Source of the DNA: Alteromonas naphthalenivorans
GTDB lineage: Bacteria; Pseudomonadota; Gammaproteobacteria; Enterobacterales; Alteromonadaceae
Length of the DNA stretch: 64,000 nt
Direction of reading: 5' to 3'
Assembly (NCBI RefSeq): GCF_000213655.1
Contig: NC_015554.1
Span: forward strand, 1,860,001-1,924,000
The notes beneath the pieces were generated by a model, which saw only the letters and a program-made list of their open reading frames with translations, was not told where the DNA came from and searched no databases. A program made the translations under genes and the position numbers. This document shows positions 23,846-37,514 of this stretch, one piece after another; positions within the stretch are counted from its first letter, which is position 1, and every line of letters starts with the position of its first letter.

Positions 23846-24456
23846 ATCAATCCTCTATATTTATTCTTTTTCGTCAGTGGGTGTAACGAGCTGTCGTTGC
23901 GTTTCACTTACACTTTCGTTTTAAGCATTAGCACTGTAATGAGTAATAACCTCTACATCACTTACTATACACCTTAATTGCAATTGGACATTAGAGTGAA
24001 GCCCTAATCACACATCTGCGAATTAGCGTCTTTAAGCAAGTGTACCTATGTACAATAGCGATAGCATACAAAACTAATAGTTAATCGTTTTTAGCAAAAA
24101 TTTATGACCAACATGCGACTGTCGCGAGAGCCTTTCTTCTATCTCTCACTCATTTTTATTAACGCCGCGGAGTCGAACACATTAGTTATAATGAATGTAA
24201 TCATTTTATAAGTGCTTAATACAAATTATAGACAGAGGAAGATCAGAAAAACTTTCAATGAGTTGCAGTACTTTTTCACCGCTATCTTACGTGTGTTTGT
24301 ACGTTTATCAATGCGGCATTGCTACTTAGTGGCTAGAACATCTTCTAACCTTAATAAAAGTTTTAGCATTGTGAATTTTATTTAATGAAACCTGCACGAA
24401 AATATACGCTGCTTATTCCAGCTTGCTGTGGTGCTAATACATTTTATTTCGAGCAT
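23846..24456. other. 611-bp intergenic region upstream of ovoA
   Basis: AT-rich DNA with no supportable gene. A 35-codon frame at 24104-24211 has no convincing ribosome binding site. The ovoA promoter should lie near 23850-24000 on the minus strand, but no convincing -35/-10 pair was found. Confidence 0.5.
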
Positions 24457-24484
24457 AAAAAAACCCGCAACAGTGTGCGGGTTT
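24457..24484 (-). terminator. Terminator of tRNA-Ser copy 1
   Basis: On the minus strand, AAACCCGCA, a short loop, TGCGGGTTT and a T run. It lies 9 bp beyond the CCA end of the tRNA and is conserved in the other two copies. Confidence 0.88.
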
Positions 24485-24492
24485 CTAGAACT

Positions 24493-24584
24493 TGGCGGAG
24501 AGGGAGGGATTCGAACCCCCGGAAGGTTTGACCCTTCGCCTGATTTCAAGTCAGGTGCATTAAACCGAGCTCTGCCACCTCTCC
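24493..24584 (-). tRNA. serT: tRNA-Ser (TGA), copy 1
   Basis: A 92-nt class II tRNA: acceptor GGAGAGG, long variable arm, anticodon loop CTTGAAA (TGA) and encoded GCCA end. It is identical over its whole length to the copies at 24743 and 37186. Its promoter and terminator are most similar to those of the distant copy 3. Confidence 0.97.
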
Positions 24585-24595
24585 AAGTGCTGCGT

Positions 24596-24623
24596 ATCTT
24601 AATGATATTTTTCAGCGTGTAAA
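24596..24623 (-). promoter_or_regulatory. Promoter of tRNA-Ser copy 1
   Basis: On the minus strand TTTACA (-35), 16 bp, TAAGAT (-10), then a GC-containing discriminator before the tRNA. The same elements precede copies 2 and 3. Confidence 0.6.
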
Positions 24624-24706
24624 GGGTAAATTTAAATTAAAAGCACTAAGTGATGAATTGATAAACAAACTGATTAAAAACTATTACATCCTAGTGGTTA
24701 CAGCAT

Positions 24707-24734
24707 AAAAAAACCCGCAACAATGTGCGGGCTT
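24707..24734 (-). terminator. Terminator of tRNA-Ser copy 2
   Basis: Same hairpin as copy 1 with two base changes (CCCGCACATTGTTGCGGG on the minus strand) followed by a T run. Confidence 0.86.
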
Positions 24735-24742
24735 TTAGAACT

Positions 24743-24834
24743 TGGCGGAGAGGGAGGGATTCGAACCCCCGGAAGGTTTGACCCTTCGCCTGATTTCAAG
24801 TCAGGTGCATTAAACCGAGCTCTGCCACCTCTCC
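24743..24834 (-). tRNA. serT: tRNA-Ser (TGA), copy 2
   Basis: Identical 92-nt sequence to copy 1, exactly 250 bp away and in the same orientation. Flanks on both sides are recognisably duplicated (AAACCCGCAAC before it and GTGATGAAT-ACAAAC after it on the plus strand), so copies 1 and 2 are a tandem duplication of a 250-bp unit. Confidence 0.97.
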
Positions 24835-24845
24835 AAGTACTGCGT

Positions 24846-24873
24846 ATTGTGGCGATTTTTTTTATTCTGTAAA
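24846..24873 (-). promoter_or_regulatory. Promoter of tRNA-Ser copy 2
   Basis: TTTACA (-35), 16 bp and CACAAT (-10) on the minus strand. The -35 is identical to copies 1 and 3, while the -10 region has diverged. Confidence 0.5.
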
Positions 24874-25120
24874 GTATTAATTTAATTAAATAGTGCTAAG
24901 TGATGAATAGACAAACAAACTGGTCAAAAAGTAACGGCTGGTGGTTAAATTTACACCACGTTAAAAACTAAATGCCACCCGCGAAGTGTTGTGCATTAAG
25001 TATTTTTTAACTTTCACCAGCATAACGTAAGAGCGTCACAATGCGTGTTCATTTTCGTAAAAAATGTGGGCCGCAAATCCGCGACACACATTTCTCTTTC
25101 ACACATTTGCAGATGTGCCA

Positions 25121-26587: not shown

Positions 26588-26851
26588 ATAACACCTTACG
26601 ATTGCGGGAAGAAATCGCAAGACTATACATGTAAATGGAGTGTAACAATGCGACTGTGGTCGTACATGAGCGTTGATTTCACATTTATTACTGCTAGTAA
26701 TGTGAAAATTGGAGGCTGCATTCCACGACCCCTTCACTGGCAATCTCAGTTTTGAAGTCCTATTCAACGTCAAAAAATTAGTGAACGATCACACATTGTC
26801 GGCAAGTTACACCAACAAAAATACTCTTTAATCAGCAAATACATAGAGATT
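26588..26851. other. Intergenic region between DUF3360 and the NTF2-like gene
   Basis: Divergent intergenic DNA totalling 386 bp up to 26973; the right part holds the first direct-repeat operator. In the rest I see only the AAGG ribosome binding site for the DUF3360 GTG start. Confidence 0.45.
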
Positions 26852-26884
26852 TTGACCCTAAATTCACCCTGACTAACATAGGTT
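26852..26884 (+). promoter_or_regulatory. Direct-repeat operator/promoter 1 (NTF2-like gene)
   Basis: Half-sites TTGACCCT (26852-26859) and TTCACCCT (26863-26870), starts 11 bp apart, then 8 bp, then TAGGTT (26879-26884) as a -10-like hexamer. Points at the gene starting at 26974. One of eight sites with this architecture. Confidence 0.6.
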
Positions 26885-26973
26885 TATGTTGAGAGCGTAA
26901 CCCTTCGCACGACAAGGAAAAGCGTGAGCTTTGCTACATAGACCACTCACTCCACACACAGAATAGGATTATT

Positions 26974-27480
26974 ATGACAAACGGATTCGGATTGTTTTGC
27001 GTTCCAGCACTAATGGTTGCCCAGGTTAGTCTTGCATCAGTTGAAGATGCTGAAGCTGACATTCGTGGTATTGTCGAACAATTTCGTGTCAGTATTATCA
27101 ATCAAGATACGGAAGTTTTTAGTTCGCTATTCTTAAATGAAGACATTCCATTTGTCGCGGTGTTCAGCAAAGAAATGCTAGCCAAGAAGCGCATAGACAA
27201 GCCTGACTATCCAGCTATTATCGATTTTAGTGATTTTGGCTCTCCAGTTAAAATGCTGTCTGGAGACGAAACTCAAGAAGAGAAGATGTCGAATATCAAA
27301 GTACATACAGATGGATACCTCGCCAGCGTGCACTTTGATTATAAGGACTATGAAGGTGGTCAACAACGCTCATACGGAACCGAGTTGTGGAGCCTGATAA
27401 AAGTCGGTGGTGATTGGAAAATTACATCCGTCACTTTTTCCGTTACGGAGTTGGAAAGCTGGGAGTCGAGTACTAAATGA
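26974..27480 (+). CDS. Secreted NTF2-like (SnoaL) domain protein
   Basis: A 168-residue protein with a likely signal peptide (hydrophobic to about residue 20, cleavage near SLAS). An NTF2-like fold follows: VEDAEADIRGIVEQFRVSII at the start and GTELWSLIKVGGDWKITSVTF at the end, typical of SnoaL_3/DUF4440-like domains. Such domains can bind small ligands or be enzymes; none of the usual catalytic residues is certain. Downstream of operator 1 and followed by a good terminator. Confidence 0.7.
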   Translation: MTNGFGLFCVPALMVAQVSLASVEDAEADIRGIVEQFRVSIINQDTEVFSSLFLNEDIPFVAVFSKEMLAKKRIDKPDYPAIIDFSDFGSPVKMLSGDETQEEKMSNIKVHTDGYLASVHFDYKDYEGGQQRSYGTELWSLIKVGGDWKITSVTFSVTELESWESSTK

Positions 27481-27489
27481 ACATGCCTG

Positions 27490-27519
27490 TGCAGCAGAAG
27501 TATTTGCTGCCTTTTTTTT
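27490..27519 (+). terminator. Terminator after the NTF2-like gene
   Basis: GCAGCA, 8-base loop, TGCTGC, then a run of eight T. It also abuts the 3' end of the convergent marR gene. Confidence 0.85.
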
Positions 27520-27522
27520 CTT

Positions 27523-27945
27523 CTAAATCATCCGTAATAAGTTCAAGAGTTTATCGGCATTTTCTTTATCGAGGTTCTTAAGCATTGTTTGAGACTGCGC
27601 ATCAAAGGTTACACAGGCGTTATTGAACAACTCCTCTCCCGCCGCAGTAAGTTTTATTAAGCTCACTTTTGCGCCCCTTTCATTACTGTCTTTTGTCACA
27701 AGCCCGTTCTTTTCCATTGGCTGTAGTAGTCGAGTAATTCCCGATACCGATCTTGCTAGCGCGTCAGCAATATCAACTCGCCGAAGAGTATGACTTGGTG
27801 CTTTTATTAGAGTGAACAAAACCATGTATTCGGTTGAACCTATTCCATGTATATCCCCCAAACTATTATCTAAACGCTTAGTCATGATTGCTGTATTCAA
27901 CCACAAGTTTTTTGTTATTGATCCAGAGTCCGAATGTTGTTTCAT
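27523..27945 (-). CDS. MarR family transcriptional regulator
   Basis: A 140-residue winged-helix regulator. Seen: LRRVDIADALARSVSGITRLLQPMEKNGLV as the recognition region and the wing NERGAKVSLIKLTAAGEEL. Full family length. The ATG follows GAAGG. It lies downstream of a truncated oxidoreductase in the same direction, and MarR regulators often control such genes and themselves. The ligand is unknown. Confidence 0.86.
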   Translation of the reverse strand: MKQHSDSGSITKNLWLNTAIMTKRLDNSLGDIHGIGSTEYMVLFTLIKAPSHTLRRVDIADALARSVSGITRLLQPMEKNGLVTKDSNERGAKVSLIKLTAAGEELFNNACVTFDAQSQTMLKNLDKENADKLLNLLRMI

Positions 27946-28001
27946 AATATAATTACCTTCAAAAAATTTGCATGAGTATTAATAGTCAACAATAGTCCAA
28001 A

Positions 28002-28015
28002 AATTAGTTCTAATT
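28002..28015. promoter_or_regulatory. Palindrome upstream of marR, candidate MarR operator
   Basis: AATTAG-TT-CTAATT, a perfect 6-2-6 inverted repeat 57 bp before the marR start. Suits a dimeric winged-helix regulator, but assignment is by position only. Confidence 0.35.
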
Positions 28016-28045
28016 GTTTTTTTCATAGCCCTGTTGTCGATTTAT

Positions 28046-28055
28046 AGTTGCAACT
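28046..28055. promoter_or_regulatory. Second palindrome upstream of marR
   Basis: AGTTGCAACT, a perfect 10-bp palindrome between marR and the broken oxidoreductase. It could be a second operator half of the same system. Confidence 0.3.
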
Positions 28056-28104
28056 TAGTTTTTAATTTATACTTTAACGCTAGGCTCACGTTAATTTTAT
28101 TCAC

Positions 28105-28251
28105 TTAAAATTTGAACACTGTTCTTAAAGAATATGTAAAGGCTTCCTTTCTGCGAACAAAAGCAACGACTGGGATCCCACTTTGGACCACCGCTCTAAT
28201 TAAGCTGTTTCCTAAATATCCACTGGCACCAAAAATAGCCACTTTTTTCAT
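28105..28251 (-). pseudogene. Truncated NAD(P)-binding (NmrA/epimerase-like) oxidoreductase
   Basis: A 48-codon frame starting MKKVAIFGASGYLGNSLIRA, the N-terminal Rossmann strand and GxxGxxG dinucleotide loop of NmrA-like/NAD-dependent epimerase proteins, then VVQSGIPVVAFVRRKEAF. After about 38 family-like residues the homology stops and the frame closes at 28105, so most of the protein is missing. Its upstream parts are intact: a good ribosome binding site (AGGGAAAG) and operator/promoter 2. I read it as a gene cut down by deletion, with the rest not found nearby. Confidence 0.75.
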
Positions 28252-28279
28252 CTTACTTTCCCTTAAAAGGCATGTAAGC

Positions 28280-28312
28280 AGTATCAGTCAGAGCTGGTAA
28301 ATTGAAGGTGAA
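28280..28312 (-). promoter_or_regulatory. Direct-repeat operator/promoter 2 (truncated oxidoreductase)
   Basis: Minus strand: TTCACCTT (28312-28305), 3 bp, TTTACCAG (28301-28294), 8 bp, GATACT (28285-28280). The hexamer is 28 bp before the ATG of the broken oxidoreductase. Confidence 0.55.
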
Positions 28313-28626
28313 AATAGACGTGTTTGTTATAAAGAATGTGGCAAATGAATACTCAATAGTTTCTTCCATGCATTTACCTTGCAAACGCGCTGACGATTAC
28401 GCTATCAAGCAAAACTCCACGTAAATCGGGATATCATTGTTGGCTTAAATTGTTTTTTACCGAGCTATCACTTAACAACAAGTCGAATGTCTAAGCGAAG
28501 AGCAACTAAGCGCTTATAATAAACGTCAAATAAAAAATCTCCTGCTATCAACCAATCTTTTGTTAGTATTGCATCGTTGAAAACAACCTCATCAATGGGT
28601 GGGATTTTACTGTTGGCAAAAGAAAA
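28313..28626. other. Intergenic region upstream of the DUF4386-like gene
   Basis: About 310 bp with no recognisable gene. A perfect TATAAT at 28515-28520 is about 107 bp before the next plus-strand ATG but has no matching -35. A minus-strand frame of 91 codons crosses this region; it resembles nothing I know and overlaps the start of the next gene. Confidence 0.4.
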
Positions 28627-29304
28627 ATGAGAAAAAAGCAGCTTTATGGCGTTTTCGCTTCTTTTATTTGCGCTACAAGCTTTGTTCTTGGTTTGTGCCT
28701 TATATTTATCATTGCGCCCGACTTTAATAATGGCCCTGACCAACGCTTGCGCACGCTTACGAACTTTAGTGGTTTAATGCAGGTTTGGTATTTTTTGGTT
28801 TATGTTGTATTTGGGATAAGCGTTTTAGTACTTAGCGTTTCATTATTAGAAAATCAAACGCGAGAGCACAGTGTGCTTCAACAAATTACGATGCTAATGA
28901 GCTATCTTTGGTCATGTTATATATTCGCCAGCGGCTTTATCGCTATTCTTTCGATCGAATTTCTATTTAATGAGAATTTTACGCTGGCAACGGCTGTCGT
29001 TGATTTATGGCGAGATATCTACGCCATTCAAATGGGATTAGGGGAAGGCTTTGAATGGGTAGGCGCAATTTGGGTATTGATGATTAATACTTGTTTACTG
29101 AAAGAGAAAAGGCTAAGTAAAAAGCTTGTTATGTTTGGTTACTTTATAAGTTTTTTCGGTTTTTTAACGCTTATTCCAAGCCTTCAGGAAATGGGCGCAG
29201 TGTTTGGGTTACTACAGATTTTTTGGTTCCTATTTGTAGGTTTTATGTTGCAGCATGAAAGGCGCCATTCGTGCCGTCATCACGCCACCTATTCAAATGA
29301 ATGA
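28627..29304 (+). CDS. DUF4386-like integral membrane protein
   Basis: A 225-residue protein with about six hydrophobic segments starting MRKKQLYGVFASFICATSFV. The pattern (segments at about 8-30, 47-72, 84-108, 128-152, 163-182 and 187-205) and motifs such as MQVWYFLVYVVFGISVLVLS suggest DUF4386, but this is only by resemblance. There is no strong ribosome binding site. It is convergent with the sensor kinase gene. Function unknown. Confidence 0.6.
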   Translation: MRKKQLYGVFASFICATSFVLGLCLIFIIAPDFNNGPDQRLRTLTNFSGLMQVWYFLVYVVFGISVLVLSVSLLENQTREHSVLQQITMLMSYLWSCYIFASGFIAILSIEFLFNENFTLATAVVDLWRDIYAIQMGLGEGFEWVGAIWVLMINTCLLKEKRLSKKLVMFGYFISFFGFLTLIPSLQEMGAVFGLLQIFWFLFVGFMLQHERRHSCRHHATYSNE

Positions 29305-29343
29305 TGATTAAGCAAGAAGGCTTGAATAAAAATACGCATTCGC

Positions 29344-29376
29344 ACTTTACGTTGATAGAGGGAATCTAAAGGTGAA
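29344..29376 (-). promoter_or_regulatory. Direct-repeat operator/promoter 3, no obvious target gene
   Basis: Minus strand: TTCACCTT (29376-29369), 3 bp, ATTCCCTC (29365-29358), 8 bp, TAAAGT (29349-29344). It lies between two convergent genes and points into the 3' end of the DUF4386-like gene, so it would drive antisense RNA. The second half-site is the weakest of the set. Confidence 0.4.
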
Positions 29377-29394
29377 ATTTCAAATCAATAAGGG

Positions 29395-30621
29395 CTAGAT
29401 AATGGTTGATATGGCGACTCTGTAGATACTGTTTTCTTGCTCAATCGTGACGCCCCACCCCATTTCTTCAACGATGCGTTTTACAAGGTATTGACCGTGT
29501 CCCAAACCTTGATAATAGGGACGCTCTTGAGTGGCTTCCAGTGAATTTTCAAAAATGAGTTCGTGGGCAGCAGAACGGATGCTCATAGCTTTACCGTTTC
29601 CATGGTAAACCCCATTGTTTACCAGGTTTTGGCAGAGCAAACCCAACAATAGCTCGTTGCCAATGACGCGCATTTTAGGATCAACAGTGATATGAGCATC
29701 AAAAGAAAAGTCAGGGTATAAATGATAAACCTTCAGTACCGTTTTCTCGATAATCGGTAATACCCTAAATTCTGTAAACTGCAAATTTTCTTGTCTAGCT
29801 AGCGCCAATAGTATTTCAACCGTCTGTTCAAGTTCATTGGCAGATTGTTTTAATAGGTTGTACTCAGCTTCGCTACCCACCTTTGCATTATTGAGTGTTA
29901 AGGTATTTTTAATTAACGTGATGGGTGTACGTAGCTCATGGCTAACGTCGCGGGTAAAATTTTGCTCCCGCTCCAGTAATATCTGAATTTCGTCATAAGA
30001 CTCTGCAAGCGCTTTGGCAAGCTTTCCAATTTCATCTGCCCTATCTAAACCAAACATAGATACTACATCCACCTTTCTTTCAGATTTAAGGTCGGTAGTA
30101 CTACCTCTTTTTTCAACATTTTTAGTCAATTGCTCTATAGGGCGCGAAAGCCATTTAGACAGGTACCACGAGCTCAATAAACATAGAATAAATGCACTTC
30201 CAGAAATACTATAAAGAAACAACGATTTATATTGGCTAAGATGTTGATTTGCTGACAAAGAATTTATGTTCATCAGTAGTAGTTGAGTGTTTTGCTCCAT
30301 CAAAAGTATTCTGAAAACAAACTGTTGATTATCTTTTGTGACAAAACTTCCACTACGCGCATTGCCAACGGCCTTAATTATTTCATTGGGTACCGACGAC
30401 ATATTGGCATATAAAACAGTATTTAGTATTGTTGGCGTTAATAAGGTATTTTTGTTTGCTATTAAGCGTTGCTCCTCTTGCGCGAGCACAGATTGATAGG
30501 CATTCGCTTCGGCGATTTCTATTAATATTGTTGAGAAGCGTATAAAAAAAACACAGATGATTAACGATAAACAGGTAAAGGCAACCATTAGTCTATTTTG
30601 TAAGCTCGTAAACCTAATCAT
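29395..30621 (-). CDS. Sensor histidine kinase of an OmpR-type two-component system
   Basis: A 408-residue kinase: membrane segments at about 10-32 and 132-152 flank a periplasmic sensor of about 100 residues, followed by a HAMP-like linker (150-210). The H-box is RDVSHELRTPITLIKN with His228, the N-box is LLCQNLVNNGVYHG and the G2-like loop is GLGHGQYLVKRI. The usual DxGxG (G1) motif is replaced by FENSLEATQ, so ATP binding is divergent. It overlaps the response regulator by 8 bp, so the two are co-translated. The ligand cannot be read from sequence. Confidence 0.87.
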   Translation of the reverse strand: MIRFTSLQNRLMVAFTCLSLIICVFFIRFSTILIEIAEANAYQSVLAQEEQRLIANKNTLLTPTILNTVLYANMSSVPNEIIKAVGNARSGSFVTKDNQQFVFRILLMEQNTQLLLMNINSLSANQHLSQYKSLFLYSISGSAFILCLLSSWYLSKWLSRPIEQLTKNVEKRGSTTDLKSERKVDVVSMFGLDRADEIGKLAKALAESYDEIQILLEREQNFTRDVSHELRTPITLIKNTLTLNNAKVGSEAEYNLLKQSANELEQTVEILLALARQENLQFTEFRVLPIIEKTVLKVYHLYPDFSFDAHITVDPKMRVIGNELLLGLLCQNLVNNGVYHGNGKAMSIRSAAHELIFENSLEATQERPYYQGLGHGQYLVKRIVEEMGWGVTIEQENSIYRVAISTII

Positions 30622-31303
30622 CGATACCCTTTAACTGATAGCCAATATTGCTGATCGTGTGAAGAATAGGTTTTCCCGTTACTTGTTCGGTCGCCTTTCT
30701 AAGCGCATATATGTGTGATTTTAGCGCATTGCTTTCAGGCGGTTCATCCCCCCAAACGTGCTCAATTAGTTCTGAACGGCTGACAGGGTAAGGTATTTCA
30801 TTCAATAGTTTATGCAAAAGTTTAAAGCCCACCTTTGTCACTTTTATGTTTTCATTATTCCATAGTACCTCAAACGATCTAGTGTCTAGAGATAACGCTC
30901 CGTGGGAAACAAGGGTGTTTTGGTGCAACTCAGACCTTCTTGACATCGCCTCGCATCGCAAGGCCAGCTCTCTTAGATCAAAAGGCTTAGTAAGATAATC
31001 GTCAGCGCCTTTGCCAAACCCTTTGACTTTATCCTCAAAAGCATCCCTAGCAGTAAGCATCAATATTGGTATGTTGGCGCTAGCATGATACTTAATTTTT
31101 TCACATACTCGTAGGCCGTCAATATCAGGCAAATTTAAGTCCAAAATAACAACATCAAAAGTATGCTCTAATGCTAATGTTACTCCTAACTTCCCTGTTG
31201 CCGCATAATCTACATCCCAGCCATGGCCTTGTAGGAAACCGATAATTTGATTCGCTATTGCTTGGTTGTCTTCAACAAGAAGCACGCGTAATTTACGCTT
31301 CAT
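30614..31303 (-). CDS. OmpR/PhoB family response regulator
   Basis: A 229-residue regulator: receiver domain with phospho-acceptor Asp55 (VVILDLNLPD) and the LTKPFD lysine, then a winged-helix DNA-binding domain (VSRSELIEHVWGDEPPESNALKSHIYALRKA). The start MKRKLRVLLVED is preceded by AAGGGAGAG; the frame extends six more codons without support. OmpR/PhoB-type regulators bind tandem direct repeats with about 11-bp period, which is what is found at eight sites around this gene, including its own promoter at 31381-31413. I infer it controls the surrounding genes. Confidence 0.92.
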   Translation of the reverse strand: MKRKLRVLLVEDNQAIANQIIGFLQGHGWDVDYAATGKLGVTLALEHTFDVVILDLNLPDIDGLRVCEKIKYHASANIPILMLTARDAFEDKVKGFGKGADDYLTKPFDLRELALRCEAMSRRSELHQNTLVSHGALSLDTRSFEVLWNNENIKVTKVGFKLLHKLLNEIPYPVSRSELIEHVWGDEPPESNALKSHIYALRKATEQVTGKPILHTISNIGYQLKGIDD

Positions 31304-31380
31304 ACAGCTCTCCCTTTGCATAAAAAAACTGTGTCAAAGCTGAATAATTCAGCTTTATTTAGTCAATAATCGTAATGAGT

Positions 31381-31413
31381 AGCCTACTTATTTGAAAGTG
31401 ATGTGAAGGTGAA
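31381..31413 (-). promoter_or_regulatory. Direct-repeat operator/promoter 4 (two-component operon)
   Basis: Minus strand: TTCACCTT (31413-31406), 3 bp, ATCACTTT (31402-31395), 8 bp, TAGGCT (31386-31381). It lies 77 bp before the response regulator ATG, suggesting autoregulation. Confidence 0.6.
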
Positions 31414-31432
31414 ATTTAATCTTTTATATCAT

Positions 31433-31465
31433 TTCACCCTAAATTTACTTAAGAGTACTGATGAT
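31433..31465 (+). promoter_or_regulatory. Direct-repeat operator/promoter 5 (S41 protease)
   Basis: TTCACCCT (31433-31440), 3 bp, TTTACTTA (31444-31451), 8 bp, GATGAT (31460-31465). Back to back with operator 4, forming a divergent control region. The -10-like hexamer covers the ATG at 31461, so translation must start downstream. Confidence 0.6.
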
Positions 31466-31496
31466 TGTTAATTCATTCAATAAACGAGGTAATAAC

Positions 31497-32567
31497 GTGC
31501 TTCAAATGAACAGTAACATGAGTCGAGAAAATTCGTTCTGGCAGAGAGACATAAGTGTCTATCTCAATTGCCGAAAACACGACATTATTATGTTTGCTAC
31601 ACTGTTTTTCCTAACAACCACCACATCCTTTGCACAACAAAACGATGTTGAATGTGTTCAGTTAAACAACAAAATGAAGCTTGAATTAATTGAAGAGTTG
31701 AAAACCAAAATAAATCTCAACTACGTAGAAATTGATAAAATACCATTAATTATTAAAACGTTAGAGGCGATTAAACATAATAGGGCGTTCGCGAATGTAA
31801 AAAGTCGCCAGGATTTTACACGGTTTATAAACAACACCCTTCTAAGAATTGACCAGCACTTTTCTGTATCAAGCAATCTTAAAAGTAGTGGCGCCCCCCT
31901 AAAAGAATCATGGTCCGAAAAACTTGCAAGGCTCGATTGGGGCTTTGAACGTGTTGAAGTTTCAGTAAACAATATAGGGCTTCTACGTTTTTGGGGGTTT
32001 GCTGATCTCAACGAGACTTCAAAAGAAGTGATTTCAAATCACATGCGGGCAATTGAAAATGTTGATGGCCTTATCATTGATTTACGAGACAATGGAGGTG
32101 GCAGTGCGCAAACTGTTCAGTACATATCGAGCTATTTTTTAAAGGGCCGACAGCACCTAAATACCTTTTACTCAAGAGCTTCTGATAGCTTCGAAGAATT
32201 CTATACAGACCCTGCCATTGATTTCCCTCATTTAAGTCAAATCCCAATAGTCATCATTATTGGACCAAAGACGTTTTCCGCTGCCGAAGAGTTTGCTTAT
32301 AACTTCAAACATATGTCTCGTGCAATGGTCATTGGAAAAACAAGTAAGGGAGGCGCCAACCCTTGGCGTTACTTTGAACTCCAGCATGGATTACGATTTG
32401 CCATACCAACTGCAAAAGCAATAAACCCTGTTACTCAATCAAATTGGGAGGGTGTTGGCGTGCAGCCACACTTATATATAGAACTTGAAGATGCTGAACA
32501 GAAAGCCACTGAGCTATTAGTCAGGAAGTTGCACGTAAAAAGAAGCATTATTAATCACAATAATTGA
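31497..32567 (+). CDS. S41 family peptidase
   Basis: A protein of about 356 residues with an N-terminal signal segment (IIMFATLFFLTTTTSFAQQ) and a C-terminal S41 (tail-specific/IRBP-like) protease domain. Seen: GLIIDLRDNGGGS, and the catalytic Ser in GPKTFSAAEEFAYNFK (about residue 261). No PDZ domain is evident between them, which suits the IRBP-like branch. The start is placed at GTG 31497 because GAGG at 31486-31489 precedes it and the upstream ATG lies in the predicted -10; the signal peptide would then have an unusually long N-region. Predicted periplasmic or surface protease. Followed by the DJ-1-like gene after 51 bp. Confidence 0.85.
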   Translation: MLQMNSNMSRENSFWQRDISVYLNCRKHDIIMFATLFFLTTTTSFAQQNDVECVQLNNKMKLELIEELKTKINLNYVEIDKIPLIIKTLEAIKHNRAFANVKSRQDFTRFINNTLLRIDQHFSVSSNLKSSGAPLKESWSEKLARLDWGFERVEVSVNNIGLLRFWGFADLNETSKEVISNHMRAIENVDGLIIDLRDNGGGSAQTVQYISSYFLKGRQHLNTFYSRASDSFEEFYTDPAIDFPHLSQIPIVIIIGPKTFSAAEEFAYNFKHMSRAMVIGKTSKGGANPWRYFELQHGLRFAIPTAKAINPVTQSNWEGVGVQPHLYIELEDAEQKATELLVRKLHVKRSIINHNN

Positions 32568-32596
32568 CCTCAAATTTACCGCACTTTCGATAGTTT
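32564..32596 (+). promoter_or_regulatory. Direct-repeat operator/promoter 6 (DJ-1-like gene)
   Basis: TTGACCTC (32564-32571), 3 bp, TTTACCGC (32575-32582), 8 bp, TAGTTT (32591-32596). It overlaps the S41 stop codon and would give the downstream pair its own promoter in addition to read-through. Confidence 0.5.
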
Positions 32597-32618
32597 GGTA
32601 CTTTTTGAAGGAATAAGT

Positions 32619-33683
32619 ATGTTTAAAAAGATTGGTTTCATTACTCTTACTGTCATCTTTTGCATCACTAGCTTCATCATATGGTTTTTTAGTCTTCTAG
32701 GAAACGAGCTAAAAACTGACTATAGCCAACAACAGCCAAAAGACATTCGCTATATTCTTGAGGGCGTTAACGTTAGTCGCGGGCGCATATTGGCAGTACT
32801 GACTAGTGAAGACACATTAGGAGCCACGGGGAAAAGCACAGGTTACGAACTTACTGAGCTAGCGCGGGCGTTCTATGTTTTCCAAGCTAATGGGTTCACC
32901 GTTGATATAGCCAGTGTTGAAGGTGGCGAACCCTCTATGGTGGTAGACGCTGATGATATGGGCAAGTTTGACTATGCTTTTTTGAATGATGAAAAAGCCA
33001 TGTTTAAAGTTAAAAATTCATTTGCTATTAAACGTGCAAACTTAGCAATCTACGACGCCATATATTTCGTTGGCGGCAAGGGAGCAATGTTCGACTTTGC
33101 AAGTGACGTAAGTATTAAGGCTGCAGTGTCTTATTTTTGGCAAACGAACAAAGTTATTGCTGCTGTATGTCATGGTCCGGCAGCATTCGTTGATGTTGTT
33201 TCGGACACGGGCGAATATTTTGTTGAAAATAAGCAGGTTTCCGCTTTTACAAATTCCGAAGAACTATTTTTCATCCCCGATGCTAAAAATATTTTCCCCT
33301 TTTTATTAGAAACAAAATTGCGTGAGCAAAGCGCGACTTTTATCGCCGGTGAAAATTACCTTAACCAAGTCAGTGTTCACGACAACCTAATTACGGGGCA
33401 AAATCCTTGGTCAGTTTGGGAAGTAGCGGAAGAAACGATTAAGGCTTTAGGGTATGAGCCATTGCCTAGAGTAAAAACGCCGGAAGAAAATAGTGTTCAG
33501 ATTTTAAAGATTTTCGTTACTCAAGGCTATGAGAGCGCACTAAGAGTCATAAGTGAACTCAACCAAACCCCGAATACAAATATAAGTAGGCTTACCATTG
33601 CTACCCACGCTCTTGTCGCTGGCATTAAAGGCAAACTTTATAAGTCCTCTCAATTACTGATGCTTTTAAACGCAGTTGAGTAA
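32619..33683 (+). CDS. Membrane-anchored DJ-1/PfpI (Hsp31-like) family protein
   Basis: A 354-residue protein. Residues 5-28 form a membrane anchor; about 55-285 is a DJ-1/PfpI (class I glutamine amidotransferase-like) domain with GYELTE (Glu at 77-80), GGKGAMFDF and the nucleophile elbow AAVCHGPAAF with Cys184 and His185. Hsp31-type relatives act as glyoxalase III/deglycase or chaperones. A C-terminal extension of about 70 residues is unassigned. The start follows GAAGGAAT and lies just after the predicted promoter; an ATG at 32595 is inside that promoter. An external anchor is unusual, as most DJ-1 proteins are soluble. Confidence 0.8.
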   Translation: MFKKIGFITLTVIFCITSFIIWFFSLLGNELKTDYSQQQPKDIRYILEGVNVSRGRILAVLTSEDTLGATGKSTGYELTELARAFYVFQANGFTVDIASVEGGEPSMVVDADDMGKFDYAFLNDEKAMFKVKNSFAIKRANLAIYDAIYFVGGKGAMFDFASDVSIKAAVSYFWQTNKVIAAVCHGPAAFVDVVSDTGEYFVENKQVSAFTNSEELFFIPDAKNIFPFLLETKLREQSATFIAGENYLNQVSVHDNLITGQNPWSVWEVAEETIKALGYEPLPRVKTPEENSVQILKIFVTQGYESALRVISELNQTPNTNISRLTIATHALVAGIKGKLYKSSQLLMLLNAVE

Positions 33684-33726
33684 CGCAGTGCATACACCTT
33701 TTACCCCAGTCAAATCAGGAGCAAGT

Positions 33727-34971
33727 ATGAAGATGTTGCTACAACTATCTGTTCTAATCATTATATTTATCATTACCTTATCTAGCTGTTCCATCGTTAA
33801 CAGCCTGAGAATGATGAACGCGAACAATGAAATTAAACCGAGTTGGAAAACGGCGCAACGTAACAAACAAATATTAACCGCTCATTATATTGGCGAAAAA
33901 CCATACATTAAATTGACCGTTAATAAACAACACGAACTACTATTTTTAGTCGATACGGGTGCCTCATTCACCATGCTTTTTGATACCCCTGCCGTTTCTA
34001 AGCTGCAGTTCAAAAAAGGCTACTCATTGGCCGTGGCGGGTTGGGGCGAAGGAGAGAATACGCCCGCATATCAAACCCAACTTTCTGAACTCGAGATAAA
34101 CGATATTTCCTTCGAAAAAGTAGATGTCGCCTACATCCCTGTCAGTACTAGTCAGTACTATTTAACAGAAGATGAGGCTATTTTTGATGGTGTTATTGGC
34201 CATGATCTAATGAGGCATTTTGTGTGGACCTTCGACAAAAAAAATCAAACTATTTCATTGTCGGTAGAAGCAAGTCCTCGGCAAGCAAACGATGTGGTCT
34301 TACCGTTTAAAACCTCACTTTCAAAAATTAGCATACCAAGCACCGTCTATTTTAATGATAAAGACAGCATCACTCGAAACATTGTTATAGACACAGGTAG
34401 CCGACATTATATGAAAATGAATACCGCTTTCACGGATAAGAATAAAATTAAGCTACCAGCATCTTCAATTCGCGCTGCAGACTTTGGTTTGAGCGGCAAA
34501 GCACCTCACCAGCGAATGACACTGCCCGCTTTACAATTAGGATACCTCACGTTACGCAGTGTAAAAACTAATATCATAAAAAGCGATGACGAAGACGATT
34601 GGTGGATATTGGGTAGTGCCTTGTTAAACCAATTTGTGACGATAATCGATTATCCGAATAGACAATTCACTATTCGCCCCTACCCCGATGTAAAATTCAA
34701 AACGCGCTATAACTTAGCTGGCCTTGACCTTAGAAAGTTGCGAGGAGGCAACCTTATCGTTCGTTACGTGTATCCAAAGCTACCAGGGCAGATTGCAGCT
34801 ATTCAGGCCGGTGACGTGGTGAGTTCAATTAATAACAAGCGTTCAGACACAATTACCGAGGAAGATTGGCTTTTGATGGCAAGCGAGCCTAGTGATTTTA
34901 CATTATGTTTTACAACCGACATATGTAAAAGCTTTCAAACAGAAGAAATAGAGGGATACTCTGTTCGGTAA
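33727..34971 (+). CDS. Retropepsin-like aspartic protease lipoprotein with two DTG motifs and PDZ-like domain
   Basis: A 414-residue protein. The signal peptide ends in a lipobox (LSSC, Cys21), so it is probably lipidated. Two retropepsin-like halves follow: FLVDTGASFTML (Asp76) and NIVIDTGSRHYMKM (Asp222), which would form an active site within one chain. Residues about 335-400 (NLIVRYVYPKLPGQIAAIQAGD then VVSSINNKRS) look like a PDZ domain. The start MKMLLQL is preceded by AGGAG; an earlier frame from 33676 overlaps the previous gene. It starts 43 bp after the DJ-1-like gene, so they are probably co-transcribed. Confidence 0.83.
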   Translation: MKMLLQLSVLIIIFIITLSSCSIVNSLRMMNANNEIKPSWKTAQRNKQILTAHYIGEKPYIKLTVNKQHELLFLVDTGASFTMLFDTPAVSKLQFKKGYSLAVAGWGEGENTPAYQTQLSELEINDISFEKVDVAYIPVSTSQYYLTEDEAIFDGVIGHDLMRHFVWTFDKKNQTISLSVEASPRQANDVVLPFKTSLSKISIPSTVYFNDKDSITRNIVIDTGSRHYMKMNTAFTDKNKIKLPASSIRAADFGLSGKAPHQRMTLPALQLGYLTLRSVKTNIIKSDDEDDWWILGSALLNQFVTIIDYPNRQFTIRPYPDVKFKTRYNLAGLDLRKLRGGNLIVRYVYPKLPGQIAAIQAGDVVSSINNKRSDTITEEDWLLMASEPSDFTLCFTTDICKSFQTEEIEGYSVR

Positions 34972-35060
34972 TTCGTTTCTTAGTGTTGCTGTTGTAAGTG
35001 AATTGCTCGCAACCGTTACCGTACCGAGAGCCGTTGCTATACCGAGAGCCCCAAAAATAT

Positions 35061-35107
35061 AAAAAAAAGCCCAACTTCGTTTTATCGCGAGGTTGAGCCT
35101 CATTTTT
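35061..35107. terminator. Bidirectional terminator between protease and beta-barrel genes
   Basis: Stem AACTTCG (35073-35079) with CGAGGTT (35088-35094, one G-U pair), flanked by a run of eight A on the left and six T on the right. It serves the plus-strand protease gene and the convergent beta-barrel gene. Confidence 0.65.
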
Positions 35108-35129
35108 TAAAAGAGGTTTATTTGCCCAA

Positions 35130-35711
35130 TTAGAATGCGTATCTGATACTCATATTTACGATTTCTTGATCAGAGTATTTAGTATATTCAATACCCGTTA
35201 AGAAACCCCAAAGATCATACTGAGCACCGAGCCTATAAGCTTTCTGATCGGCGTCTCCATCCCAATTTTGCACTTCTAAGCCACCAAACACCTCTACGTC
35301 TGCAGTTAGCTGGTAGCGAAGGTTTGTTGCGACACTAAAGTAGTCTGTGTCGGCGCTTGCAGAATCATTATCTCGAGTGCCGGTCATATCAAAATTACCT
35401 AAACCCAGCCTGTAGTCTAGTGTCATTTGGGGTGAAATATTATGGATATATCCAATCGAAAACTGTCGTTGCAAAGTTTCAAGTTTAAATCCATCTAGAG
35501 AATCTGAAGAGTCGGTATGTTTGTATTCAGCAAAAAAGCCATACCCTATTTCAGCACTTGCTCTGAGCTCATATCCATTTAGGTTAAATGATTCAAGATC
35601 TGCTATTTCAGTTTTTACAAAACCTGCCTGCAAGAAACTGTAAGAAGGCTGAGCTGTAGTTGCGAAACTGCAAAACGATAAGCACAAGGTTGGGAGAAAA
35701 ATTTTATACAT
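35130..35711 (-). CDS. Small outer-membrane beta-barrel protein
   Basis: A 193-residue protein with a signal peptide (MYKIFLPTLCLSFCSFATTA) and alternating amphipathic strands: GYGFFAEYKHTDSS, QRQFSIGYIHNISPQM, YRLGLGNFDM, YFSVATNLRYQLT and YRLGAQYDL. The last residues are MSIRYAF, ending in the C-terminal phenylalanine expected for Bam-inserted barrels. The size suggests eight strands, as in OmpX/Ail or porin-like barrels. Exact family uncertain. Preceded by operator 7; AAGGAC is its ribosome binding site. Confidence 0.78.
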   Translation of the reverse strand: MYKIFLPTLCLSFCSFATTAQPSYSFLQAGFVKTEIADLESFNLNGYELRASAEIGYGFFAEYKHTDSSDSLDGFKLETLQRQFSIGYIHNISPQMTLDYRLGLGNFDMTGTRDNDSASADTDYFSVATNLRYQLTADVEVFGGLEVQNWDGDADQKAYRLGAQYDLWGFLTGIEYTKYSDQEIVNMSIRYAF

Positions 35712-35745
35712 GTTTGTCCTTTATGGTTTTTTTTAAACGACCTAA

Positions 35746-35778
35746 AGGCTAGCAACTCGATGGTGAACTGAAGGTGAA
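35746..35778 (-). promoter_or_regulatory. Direct-repeat operator/promoter 7 (beta-barrel gene)
   Basis: Minus strand: TTCACCTT (35778-35771), 3 bp, TTCACCAT (35767-35760), 8 bp, TAGCCT (35751-35746). It is 34 bp before the ATG and gives one of the clearest half-site pairs in the set. Confidence 0.62.
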
Positions 35779-35825
35779 AGCTGTATGGACAAAACAATCA
35801 AGACGAGATTGACTAACCATATTCG

Positions 35826-35858
35826 TTCACCCTTATTTCACTTTGCATATTTTACTAT
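35826..35858 (+). promoter_or_regulatory. Direct-repeat operator/promoter 8 (serine hydrolase)
   Basis: TTCACCCT (35826-35833), 3 bp, TTCACTTT (35837-35844), 8 bp, TACTAT (35853-35858). It is 43 bp before the hydrolase ATG and divergent from operator 7. Confidence 0.62.
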
Positions 35859-35901
35859 TCGCTTATTACGAAACGGTCCATTACCTAAGAGGATATAAAA
35901 T

Positions 35902-37071
35902 ATGATAGACATAAATGTGTTCCAGAAAACGATGATAGCAAGTGTTGTGTGTTTAGGTTTAGCGGCTTGTGGATCAAGTAGCGATTCAAGTGCGCCGATT
36001 ATACCAAGCCCACAACCTGAGCCAACCGCTGATTATCAGGACATGTTACAAGCGGCAGTAAATTCTGGTGTGCCTGGGATAGTTATGGCAATTGAAAGCC
36101 CTGAAATAAATTTTATTGGGGCTGCAGGGGTTGCCGATATTGACACCCAAGCACCTATGCAAACGTATCATCAAATGCCAACAGGCAGTTCAGGCAAAAA
36201 AGCCACCGCCTTATTAGTTGCTATGCTGCACGAAGAAGGTGTACTTAATATGGATAATTCAATATCAACATGGTTGCCCACAACTATTTTGTCTCGTATT
36301 GAAAATAGCGAGAGCATGACCCTTCGTCAGTTATTGAACCACACTGCTGGTGTTTGGGATTACTTAGATAACGGTAGTTCAGAGGAATGGTTTGAAGCTA
36401 TTATTAACGATCCTACATCAGTTAAAACCGATATTTTTGCTTTGCAGTTTGCACTTGATCGACCAGCGTACTTTGCTCCCGGTGACGCGTTTAATTATTC
36501 TAATACCGGCTATTTATTAGCGGGGTTAATTCTTGATAAGGTACTAGGAACGCACCACCACACCGCCATGCGCGAGCGTTTATTTATAGGCTTGGGCATG
36601 AACAATACCTACTACAATGGCCTTGAAAAAGACATGGGTAGCATTATTTCAGGGTACACAGAATTTGATGGTGAAATTGAAAACACTAAGTTCATTTACG
36701 AAAACATTGGTGTAGCCGATGCGCCATTAGTGTCTACAGTAGAAGATATGTCTTTATTATTGCGTGCCATCGTTGGTGAAAACTCAACCCTAGATACCGC
36801 AATAACTGAACACCTGTTTGCCAGTAACCGTCTTGTACAGGTTAACAATGAAACGCAATACGGCCTTGGGATATTCTATCAAAACATCAATGGTAAAGAC
36901 GTATATCACCATGGCGGCGGCGACCCTGGTTTTATTACCGAAAACTATTATGTGGCAGACAGTGACCTTACGTTAACCGTATTTTTTAACTGCAGTGGCT
37001 ACGAAGCTTGCCAAGTTCCCGCGGCAAACTTTACGAATAGTGTACTTGAAACTATTTTCGAGGATCGCTAG
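35902..37071 (+). CDS. Beta-lactamase/PBP4-like serine hydrolase lipoprotein
   Basis: A 389-residue class C beta-lactamase-like protein. The signal peptide ends in a lipobox (LAAC, Cys23). Catalytic motifs: S96-S-G-K99 (SxxK), Y199-S-N201 (YxN) and HHGGGDPGF (HxG). The family includes D-alanyl-D-alanine carboxypeptidases, esterases and beta-lactamases; antibiotic hydrolysis should not be assumed. Ends 115 bp before tRNA-Ser copy 3. Its AAGAGG ribosome binding site is good. Confidence 0.88.
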   Translation: MIDINVFQKTMIASVVCLGLAACGSSSDSSAPIIPSPQPEPTADYQDMLQAAVNSGVPGIVMAIESPEINFIGAAGVADIDTQAPMQTYHQMPTGSSGKKATALLVAMLHEEGVLNMDNSISTWLPTTILSRIENSESMTLRQLLNHTAGVWDYLDNGSSEEWFEAIINDPTSVKTDIFALQFALDRPAYFAPGDAFNYSNTGYLLAGLILDKVLGTHHHTAMRERLFIGLGMNNTYYNGLEKDMGSIISGYTEFDGEIENTKFIYENIGVADAPLVSTVEDMSLLLRAIVGENSTLDTAITEHLFASNRLVQVNNETQYGLGIFYQNINGKDVYHHGGGDPGFITENYYVADSDLTLTVFFNCSGYEACQVPAANFTNSVLETIFEDR

Positions 37072-37150
37072 AAAGACATGTATGATAGGTTGTTGAACAA
37101 CACATGAGGGTTCTCACTCTTATTGGCCAACCGCCTTTCTTTTACCCATA

Positions 37151-37177
37151 AAAAAACCCGCAACAGTGTGCGGGTTT
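37151..37177 (-). terminator. Terminator of tRNA-Ser copy 3
   Basis: Same CCCGCACACTGTTGCGGG hairpin and T run (minus strand) as copy 1. It may also serve the incoming plus-strand hydrolase gene. Confidence 0.88.
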
Positions 37178-37185
37178 TCAGAACT

Positions 37186-37277
37186 TGGCGGAGAGGGAGG
37201 GATTCGAACCCCCGGAAGGTTTGACCCTTCGCCTGATTTCAAGTCAGGTGCATTAAACCGAGCTCTGCCACCTCTCC
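37186..37277 (-). tRNA. serT: tRNA-Ser (TGA), copy 3
   Basis: Identical to copies 1 and 2, same orientation, 12,443 bp from copy 2. Its downstream terminator and upstream promoter are closest to copy 1 (shared GCTGCGTATCTTAATGATA on the plus strand). Confidence 0.97.
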
Positions 37278-37288
37278 AAGTGCTGCGT

Positions 37289-37316
37289 ATCTTAATGATA
37301 TTTTTATGACTGTAAA
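37289..37316 (-). promoter_or_regulatory. Promoter of tRNA-Ser copy 3
   Basis: TTTACA (-35), 16 bp, TAAGAT (-10) on the minus strand, identical in elements and spacing to copy 1. Confidence 0.6.
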
Positions 37317-37514
37317 GTAAAAATTAAAAAAAATAAGTTAAGTGATGGCATTTCAAACAATTAGTGCGCTAATTGCGCGGTTGACACGTAATTCATACTT
37401 ACTAACACTATTTTCATTTGAAACTACTTGAAAATGGGAACTAAAACCCATACAACATACACTAATAGTTAGTTTACCGTTTTGGTTAAAGACAAAGTCC
37501 TTTTGGAGGAAACA

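Follow-up and report, generated by a model that had tools for sequence, protein, structure and literature searches.

A direct-repeat promoter box and a predicted, locally clustered regulon of an OmpR/PhoB-type two-component system in Alteromonas

A two-component operon and its direct-repeat boxes

The window analyzed here is a 64,000-nt stretch of the Alteromonas naphthalenivorans genome (contig NC_015554.1, positions 1,860,001 to 1,924,000 of the forward strand); positions below are counted from its first nucleotide. It contains an operon for an OmpR/PhoB-type response regulator (RR) and a sensor histidine kinase (HK), together with genes for a 225-aa membrane protein, an S41 peptidase, a DJ-1/PfpI-like protein, an aspartyl protease-like protein, an outer-membrane β-barrel protein (OMP), a β-lactamase-family serine hydrolase (SerH) and a 168-aa protein (Table 1). 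The intergenic DNA carries copies of a 19-nt direct repeat (herein the box), each followed by a -10-like hexamer. A reading made from the sequence alone had proposed that eight such sites define one autoregulated regulon; the box at the RR operon, the co-occurrence of box and regulator across genomes and the conserved target families support that proposal, and we consider it very probable that this is a locally clustered, autoregulated regulon of one OmpR/PhoB-type two-component system.

The RR matches PF00072 with 91.7 bits and PF00486 with 55.7 bits and so has the receiver and C-terminal winged helix of the OmpR/PhoB type; its ESNALKSH segment, which by analogy would be the recognition helix, varies little across 18 aligned RRs. 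The S41, DJ-1, aspartyl protease and β-lactamase-family domain matches are clear. A Pfam scan of the HK gave no HATPase_c match at the threshold used. Across 17 aligned HKs the H-box, the N-box, an FEN variant of the G1 region and the G2 box GLGHGQYLV are invariant or nearly so; with these motifs kept, the kinase looks real though divergent. The 225-aa membrane protein, for which Pfam and NCBIfam gave no known family, is encoded next to the HK gene in 20 of 20 loci fetched from the genus and could be a signaling partner.

The sequence-only reading gave all sites one layout: an 8-bp half-site, 3 bp, a second 8-bp half-site, 8 bp and then the hexamer. All eight first half-sites are present, at 26852(+), 28312(-), 29376(-), 31413(-), 31433(+), 32564(+), 35778(-) and 35826(+), and the full layout holds for seven of them. 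Scored against TTYACC-N5-TTYAC (11 positions, with C, G or T allowed at the third base), these seven agree at 10 or 11 positions, and their hexamers read TAnnnT in five cases and GAnnnT in two. The layout fails at 29376(-), where the second half is broken (ATTCCC; 9 of 11 positions) and no gene is faced. The mechanically called start codon of the S41 gene (31461) falls within the -10 hexamer of its own site (31460-31465), so the real start should lie downstream, by reading at GTG 31497 or ATG 31506.

The exact core of the motif, TTSACCYTNNNTTYAC, occurs six times in the 4,972,148-bp host genome, and five of the six copies lie within the 9-kb segment that holds the sites; the reversed-pattern control gives three matches genome-wide. 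The binomial probability of at least five of six exact cores falling in a given 9-kb stretch is ~1e-13, before allowing for ~550 stretches. The motif is not equally common outside the segment; equal frequency there is what the sequence-only reading had named as counting against its proposal. The sixth exact core (2940823) lacks the strict box-plus-(-10) pattern defined below. With one mismatch or fewer the genome total is 67 as compared with 58 for the reversed control, so that matches outside the segment are near background. Within the window alone, 16 matches with at most two mismatches were found as compared with 11.0 ± 3.3 in shuffled sequence, and 11 of 100 shuffles reached 16, which is not significant; genome-wide and comparative tests were therefore used. 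The signal of the motif resides in the near-exact sites.

Table 1. Genes, boxes and other features of the locus (box rows give first half-site, spacer, second half-site, spacer and -10 hexamer)
Feature	Position	Strand	Basis or sequence
Stretch of 10.4 kb holding the regulon, absent at the same site in three relatives	26690..37134		Flank comparison
Box and -10 facing the 168-aa gene	26852..26884	+	TTGACCCT aaa TTCACCCT gactaaca TAGGTT
168-aa target gene	26974..27480	+	Homolog downstream of SerH in L218
NAD(P)-binding (NmrA-like) oxidoreductase remnant, former target	28094..28251	-	First 45 residues align, E 1.8e-14
Box and -10 facing the oxidoreductase remnant	28280..28312	-	TTCACCTT caa TTTACCAG ctctgact GATACT
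Small lipoprotein remnant, former target	28415..28523	+	Two pieces align with 144-aa gene of L211, E 3e-6
225-aa membrane protein (by reading), convergent neighbor of HK	28627..29304	+	Mostly without box
Decayed box and -10, putative promoter of deleted gene	29344..29376	-	TTCACCTT tag ATTCCCTC tatcaacg TAAAGT
HK, 408 aa	29395..30621	-	Pfam HisKA
RR, 229 aa, presumed activator	30614..31303	-	Pfam Response_reg and Trans_reg_C
Box and -10 of the RR-HK operon, presumed autoregulatory site	31381..31413	-	TTCACCTT cac ATCACTTT caaataag TAGGCT
Box and -10 of the S41 gene	31433..31465	+	TTCACCCT aaa TTTACTTA agagtact GATGAT
S41 peptidase, target	31461..32567	+	Pfam PF03572; true start probably 31497 or 31506
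Box and -10 of the DJ-1/aspartyl-protease genes	32564..32596	+	TTGACCTC aaa TTTACCGC actttcga TAGTTT
DJ-1/PfpI-like protein, target	32622..33683	+	Domain scan
Aspartyl protease-like protein, after DJ-1, without own box	33728..34971	+	Domain scan
OMP, target	35130..35711	-	OmpO porin (NCBIfam), Porin_4 and OMP_b-brl (Pfam), each below cut-off
Box and -10 of the OMP gene	35746..35778	-	TTCACCTT cag TTCACCAT cgagttgc TAGCCT; exact cre-tag match
Box and -10 of the SerH gene	35826..35858	+	TTCACCCT tat TTCACTTT gcatattt TACTAT; exact cre-tag match
SerH, lipoprotein-type signal (by reading), target	35902..37071	+	Pfam PF00144
232-nt repeat with tRNA-Ser(TGA), one of three copies	37145..37376		Other copies 24452-24683 and 24702-24933

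The box, its promoter and its regulator across genomes

We compared 59 genomes of the genus (denoted G, with contigs C and fetched loci L), calling HK carriers at E ≤ 1e-30. The HK is found in 23 of them, with 28 matches in total; G005 and G013 form a separate branch (HK 28% identical, RR 46-47%), and setting them aside leaves 21 genomes with the RR-HK pair. Four further HK matches of this search are 26-34% identical (G017:C10, G038:C10, G042:C55 and G048:C31). Beyond the window, 20 loci were fetched, one per genome and at most 19.9 kb each; those of G005 and G013 were added separately. For the bacterial family, 295 evenly drawn genomes were searched with the 225-aa membrane protein, which matched in 96, mostly at about 23-35% identity, and 17 stretches were fetched. 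Ten of these, from seven further genera (L211-L214 and L217-L222), hold the RR, HK and membrane genes together with boxes; the other seven have no RR, have an RR at most 50% identical or reach a contig end. The membrane protein has homologs in 32 of the family's 52 genera. L061 (15708-16898, -) and L211 (519-1706, +) also carry an extra HK homolog (~37% identical) between the OMP and SerH promoters, with no RR match beside it in either locus.

A box stands directly before the RR gene in 24 of 35 RR matches, or in 24 of 32 without the distant RRs of L088, L226 and L227 (29-43%). At L072, L074, L077 and L222 the gene that immediately precedes the RR gene, on the same strand, is a boxed SerH gene (at L077 in two frames). 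Conservation of the motif in relatives that carry the regulator, which the sequence-only reading had made a test of its proposal, is thus borne out by the 24 of 32 loci and by four more through the boxed SerH gene.

The geometry of box and promoter was assessed in 62 distinct boxes from homology-fetched loci, picked by their half-sites alone (at least 10 of 11 positions) with the -10 not looked at; they lie upstream of RR, OMP, SerH, S41, DJ-1, hydrolase, lipoprotein and oxidoreductase genes. All 62 have A(-11) and T(-7), at 8-bp spacing in 58 and 7-bp spacing in four. TAnnnT is found 8 bp after the box in 46 of the 62 and 7 bp after it in four, and at any other distance in at most four. Counted from the -10, the 19-nt box extends from about -39 to about -21, which places it over the -35 region. 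The class II geometry suggested earlier, with the sites in place of a -35, is borne out by this fixed spacing. Both half-sites are well conserved, the upstream one slightly more.

The strict pattern TTYACC-N5-TTYAC-N11-TAnnnT, taken as an exact match, occurs 53 times in the 59 genomes, with 49 matches in the 23 HK-positive genomes and four in the 36 HK-negative ones; its reversed control gives 13 matches in all 59. By genome, it is present in 19 of 23 HK-positive and three of 36 HK-negative genomes (Fisher 7e-9), and with the 21 stricter carriers in 18 of 21 and four of 38 (P 1e-8). Outside the RR loci lie 28 of the 49 matches, of which 27 were fetched (G053:C115 was left out). Nine of the 27 stand 33-101 bp upstream of cluster-gene homologs, four of them for OMP, two each for SerH and the lipoprotein and one for S41. 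Other matches recur across genomes, three times at a cytochrome b561-like gene and twice at a gene for a small membrane protein.

The target families are boxed with high regularity. Counting all matches, boxes precede 16 of 16 OMP, 15 of 17 SerH, seven of seven lipoprotein, five of five α/β hydrolase, four of four S41, five of six DJ-1, two of three oxidoreductase and two of four MarR genes. Leaving out the loci retrieved through the motif (L081, L082, L085, L089, L090, L092, L096 and L097) gives 12 of 12 for OMP, 13 of 15 for SerH and five of five for the lipoprotein; the α/β hydrolase (5/5), S41 (4/4) and DJ-1 (5/6) genes all come from homology-fetched loci. Genes expected to lack a box of their own do so: boxes stand before none of 33 HK, none of three aspartyl protease and three of 40 membrane protein genes. 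Among 472 other open reading frames of the same loci, 48 reach 13 or 14 of 14, a control that is not a clean background because boxed targets are still included in it. The 168-aa product has no match in Pfam or NCBIfam, and the label "NTF2-like" given to it earlier finds no backing there.

SerH (E ≤ 1e-60) is present in 10 of the 59 genomes, all HK-positive, and OMP (E ≤ 1e-12) in 25, of which 21 are HK-positive and four HK-negative. A box is seen at OMP in 19 of the 21; the OMP of G005 is a fragment, and the box of G053 was found via the strict pattern. Of the OMPs in HK-negative genomes, that of G007 is boxed, those of G046 and G047 have a TTCAT version and that of G015 has none. Second OMP paralogs in G000, G018 and G058 likewise have a TTCAT version of the box; in G000 (C1:4082382-4082978; L260, L273) it reads TTCATTTT-tcg-TTCATCTC, conserved and placed 8 bp before TATTCT, and the same architecture recurs in G018, G046, G047 and G058. 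This variant is perhaps read by a paralogous regulator.

Several observations weigh against a regulon tied to the local pair. Without the -10 part, the core TTSACCYTNNNTTYAC is too widespread to tell carriers apart (51 of 59 genomes have it), which shows that the -10 part matters. Four HK-positive genomes (G005, G025, G034 and G035) have no strict-pattern match, though all but G005 have boxes in which the second half is TTGAC. The clearest exception is G007, which has no HK at E ≤ 1e-30 yet has a good box at its OMP. Several remote matches lie within genes or before unrelated genes such as that for transketolase, and these are probably due to chance. L076, L212 and L223 lack the RR box and L075 has it only in part, the SerH gene of L076 is unboxed, and only one of three 168-aa genes is boxed. 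Orthologous loci are moreover not independent, so the counts overstate the number of events.

Proposed mechanism, known systems and rival explanations

In the mechanism that we propose, the sensor kinase would respond to an envelope signal and phosphorylate the RR, two molecules of which would bind head-to-tail on the 11-bp-period box TTYACC-N5-TTYACC over the -35 region. Bound RR would then recruit σ70 RNA polymerase to a -10 element at a set distance of 8 bp (in rare cases 7 bp) downstream of the 19-nt box, in the manner of PhoB at pho boxes. Predicted targets here are the RR-HK operon, OMP, SerH, the S41 peptidase, the DJ-1/aspartyl-protease pair and the 168-aa protein; in relatives they would further include an α/β hydrolase, a small lipoprotein and an NAD(P)-binding oxidoreductase, which are lost or broken here.

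The sequence-only reading knew of no described regulator with this consensus; the consensus has precedents, the boxes of CreB and ColR sharing the skeleton TTNAC-N6-TTNAC. The box skeleton is not new; the TTYACC form and the target set differ from those of ColR and CreB. The CreB/BlrA tag is TTCAC-N6-TTCAC (PMC3660660), and our system resembles CreBC/BlrAB in repeat unit and 11-bp period and in having a β-lactamase-family target; the exact tag is found in 19 of the 62 boxes and two of the eight window sites, the others being variants such as TTTAC and TTGAC. Membership of CreB, which the tag had raised, was rejected: the RR scores 142.6 bits against a curated CreB cut-off of 273, it lies far from E. 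coli CreB in a tree (where that row is long-branched), and the host genome has no creD (PF06123; found in the E. coli control). Pho boxes also consist of 11-nt direct repeat units, with PhoB contacting σ70 (PMC4415409), and keep strict spacing to the core promoter elements (PMC10294691). The present box resembles them in having two such units and strict spacing to the core promoter, and differs in repeat sequence and regulator branch, with no phosphate genes among the targets named.

Also close are ColRS of Pseudomonas and RaxRH/VgrRS of Xanthomonas, and the RR is ColR/RaxR-like. In a tree of 47 RRs, with no labeled ColR included and most E. coli rows long-branched, the RR family forms its own 17-row clade (100/99) within a 36-row group (96/95), apart from E. 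coli PhoB, OmpR, CreB, ArcA, BasR, QseB and PhoP; the wide clade also holds RRs of Xanthomonas, Stenotrophomonas, Lysobacter, Microbulbifer and Psychrobacter. ColR of Pseudomonas putida binds YYNASNNYTTTTTSAC, which contains two direct repeats, and has many membrane-protein targets, in a membrane-function regulon that includes genes adjoining colRS (PMC2689224); the regulon predicted here would likewise serve the envelope, with putative targets adjoining the regulator pair. The ColR skeleton without its T-run, YYNAS-N6-TTSAC, is found in 33 of the 62 boxes, but the full consensus with the T-run in none of them. Judging by the printed consensus, one ColR repeat, the downstream one, is much better conserved (PMC2689224), whereas here both are. 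The sensor criterion for ColRS is an ExxE just before the second transmembrane segment (TM2) (PMC8306577, section 3.2), and by eye no ExxE is conserved before TM2 in the 17 aligned sensors; unlike at ColRS/RaxRH loci, no lpxE or eptA was found among 10 window proteins scanned. Assignment to ColRS itself, raised by the likeness of RR and box, was not adopted given the sensor, the neighborhood and the full consensus. Because the family is a clade of its own inside a Xanthomonas/Moraxellaceae-type group and away from the E. coli RRs, we file it as ColR-like but separate; on sequence comparison the RR-HK pair is a new OmpR-type, ColR-like system, predicted to be neither ColRS nor CreBC. Literature on Alteromonas response regulators and such repeats, screened by title and abstract opening, gave no description of it.

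The likeness of the boxes to known operators opens the possibility that they are bound by another OmpR-type regulator, CreB-like or another ColR-like paralog, with the local pair merely one of its targets. The skeleton equals the cre-tag and resembles the ColR box as printed in the sources above, the host genome encodes two further RRs that score ~200 bits with the family alignment and has one match to the CreB model (229.5 bits, below the 273 cut-off), and G007 has its boxed OMP without an HK. The strict box nevertheless tracks the presence of the HK across the 59 genomes and precedes the RR operon in most loci; CreD is missing from the host genome, and the stretches upstream of RRs in 54 of 80 named loci gave one weak match and no convincing box. 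We judge this explanation unlikely.

Equally improbable, in our view, is that the RR represses, the box overlapping the core promoter and blocking RNA polymerase. A span of about -39 to -21 is also a place for repressors, and negative control of oprQ by ColR has been reported (PMC2689224); repression would not, however, require the fixed spacing to the -10 that all 62 boxes keep (8 or 7 bp). By the layout, the two repeats stop 21 and 10 bp short of the -10, and neither can therefore be a -35 at the usual 16-18 bp, although no search for a separate -35 was made. That the repeats reflect chance or the composition of A+T-rich intergenic DNA would fit the window count at two mismatches, which is not above that of shuffles, but is scarcely credible beside the clustering of exact matches, the co-occurrence with the HK and the fixed -10 in 62 distinct boxes.

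Target turnover and the tRNA-Ser site

The sequence-only reading counted eight matching sites; seven are strong copies, and the eighth, 29376(-), is the decayed remnant of a deleted gene's promoter. At L059, L060, L061 and L211 a 343-aa gene with an intact box lies between the membrane protein and HK genes, and in these loci and in L212 the counterpart of 29376(-) is intact and faces a gene of 343-347 aa; Pfam identifies this gene as an α/β hydrolase (L061 and L212 scanned). The window aligns to both flanks of this gene without the gene itself (window 29265/29274 = L059 7666/8730), which indicates that 29376(-) was the promoter of a deleted target and that its second half-site has since decayed. 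Two further targets survive as fragments. Beyond the residues listed in Table 1, a 17-residue C-terminal piece of the oxidoreductase remnant, with a stop, aligns weakly (E 0.56); L211 has an intact homolog of 292 aa, and intact boxed genes are found in L061 and L211. All seven homologs of the broken lipoprotein are boxed, two of them in loci retrieved through the motif. The cluster of G058 (L060) has lost most of the S41, DJ-1 and aspartyl protease genes (window 31834 to 35062 is missing), another sign of target turnover.

The site of the cluster is free of it in three relatives. In G022 and G024 (L287 and L288; no HK) the permease-side and tRNA-Ser-side flanks, corresponding to the window up to 26664 and from 37150/37147 on, lie 31 and 27 bp apart, and in G047 (L286) ~1 kb, including a further tRNA-Ser repeat, separates those corresponding to 26689 and 37147. 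The cluster of G018 and G058 occupies the same position as that of the window. In G032 it is on contig C42; contig C15 carries the window's flank and, 3.4 kb from it, a second tRNA-Ser match. The gene order is identical in G261, from another genus, where the proteins are 65-91% identical. No integrase was found among 10 window proteins scanned. From these comparisons we infer a gain rather than a loss of the 10.4-kb stretch and its movement as a unit. The compactness claimed for the regulon applies only to some lineages, others having it scattered.

It is an even question whether the regulon is portable in the fuller sense that sensor, regulator and nearly all targets with their operators travel as a ~10-kb cassette, that these are scattered in other species, and that targets enter and leave with their own operators, deletions leaving scars. 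A two-component system of at least eight genera in one bacterial family gains a predicted operator, promoter architecture and target list together. Since some genomes hold the regulon as a cassette while others have it dispersed, and since an operator can be observed decaying after loss of its target, the case is a tractable one for studying how regulons assemble and move.

Three copies of the 232-nt tRNA-Ser(TGA) repeat bracket a permease gene and the regulon in the window. A search with the last copy and its flank found matches in 58 of the 59 genomes, one to four in each.

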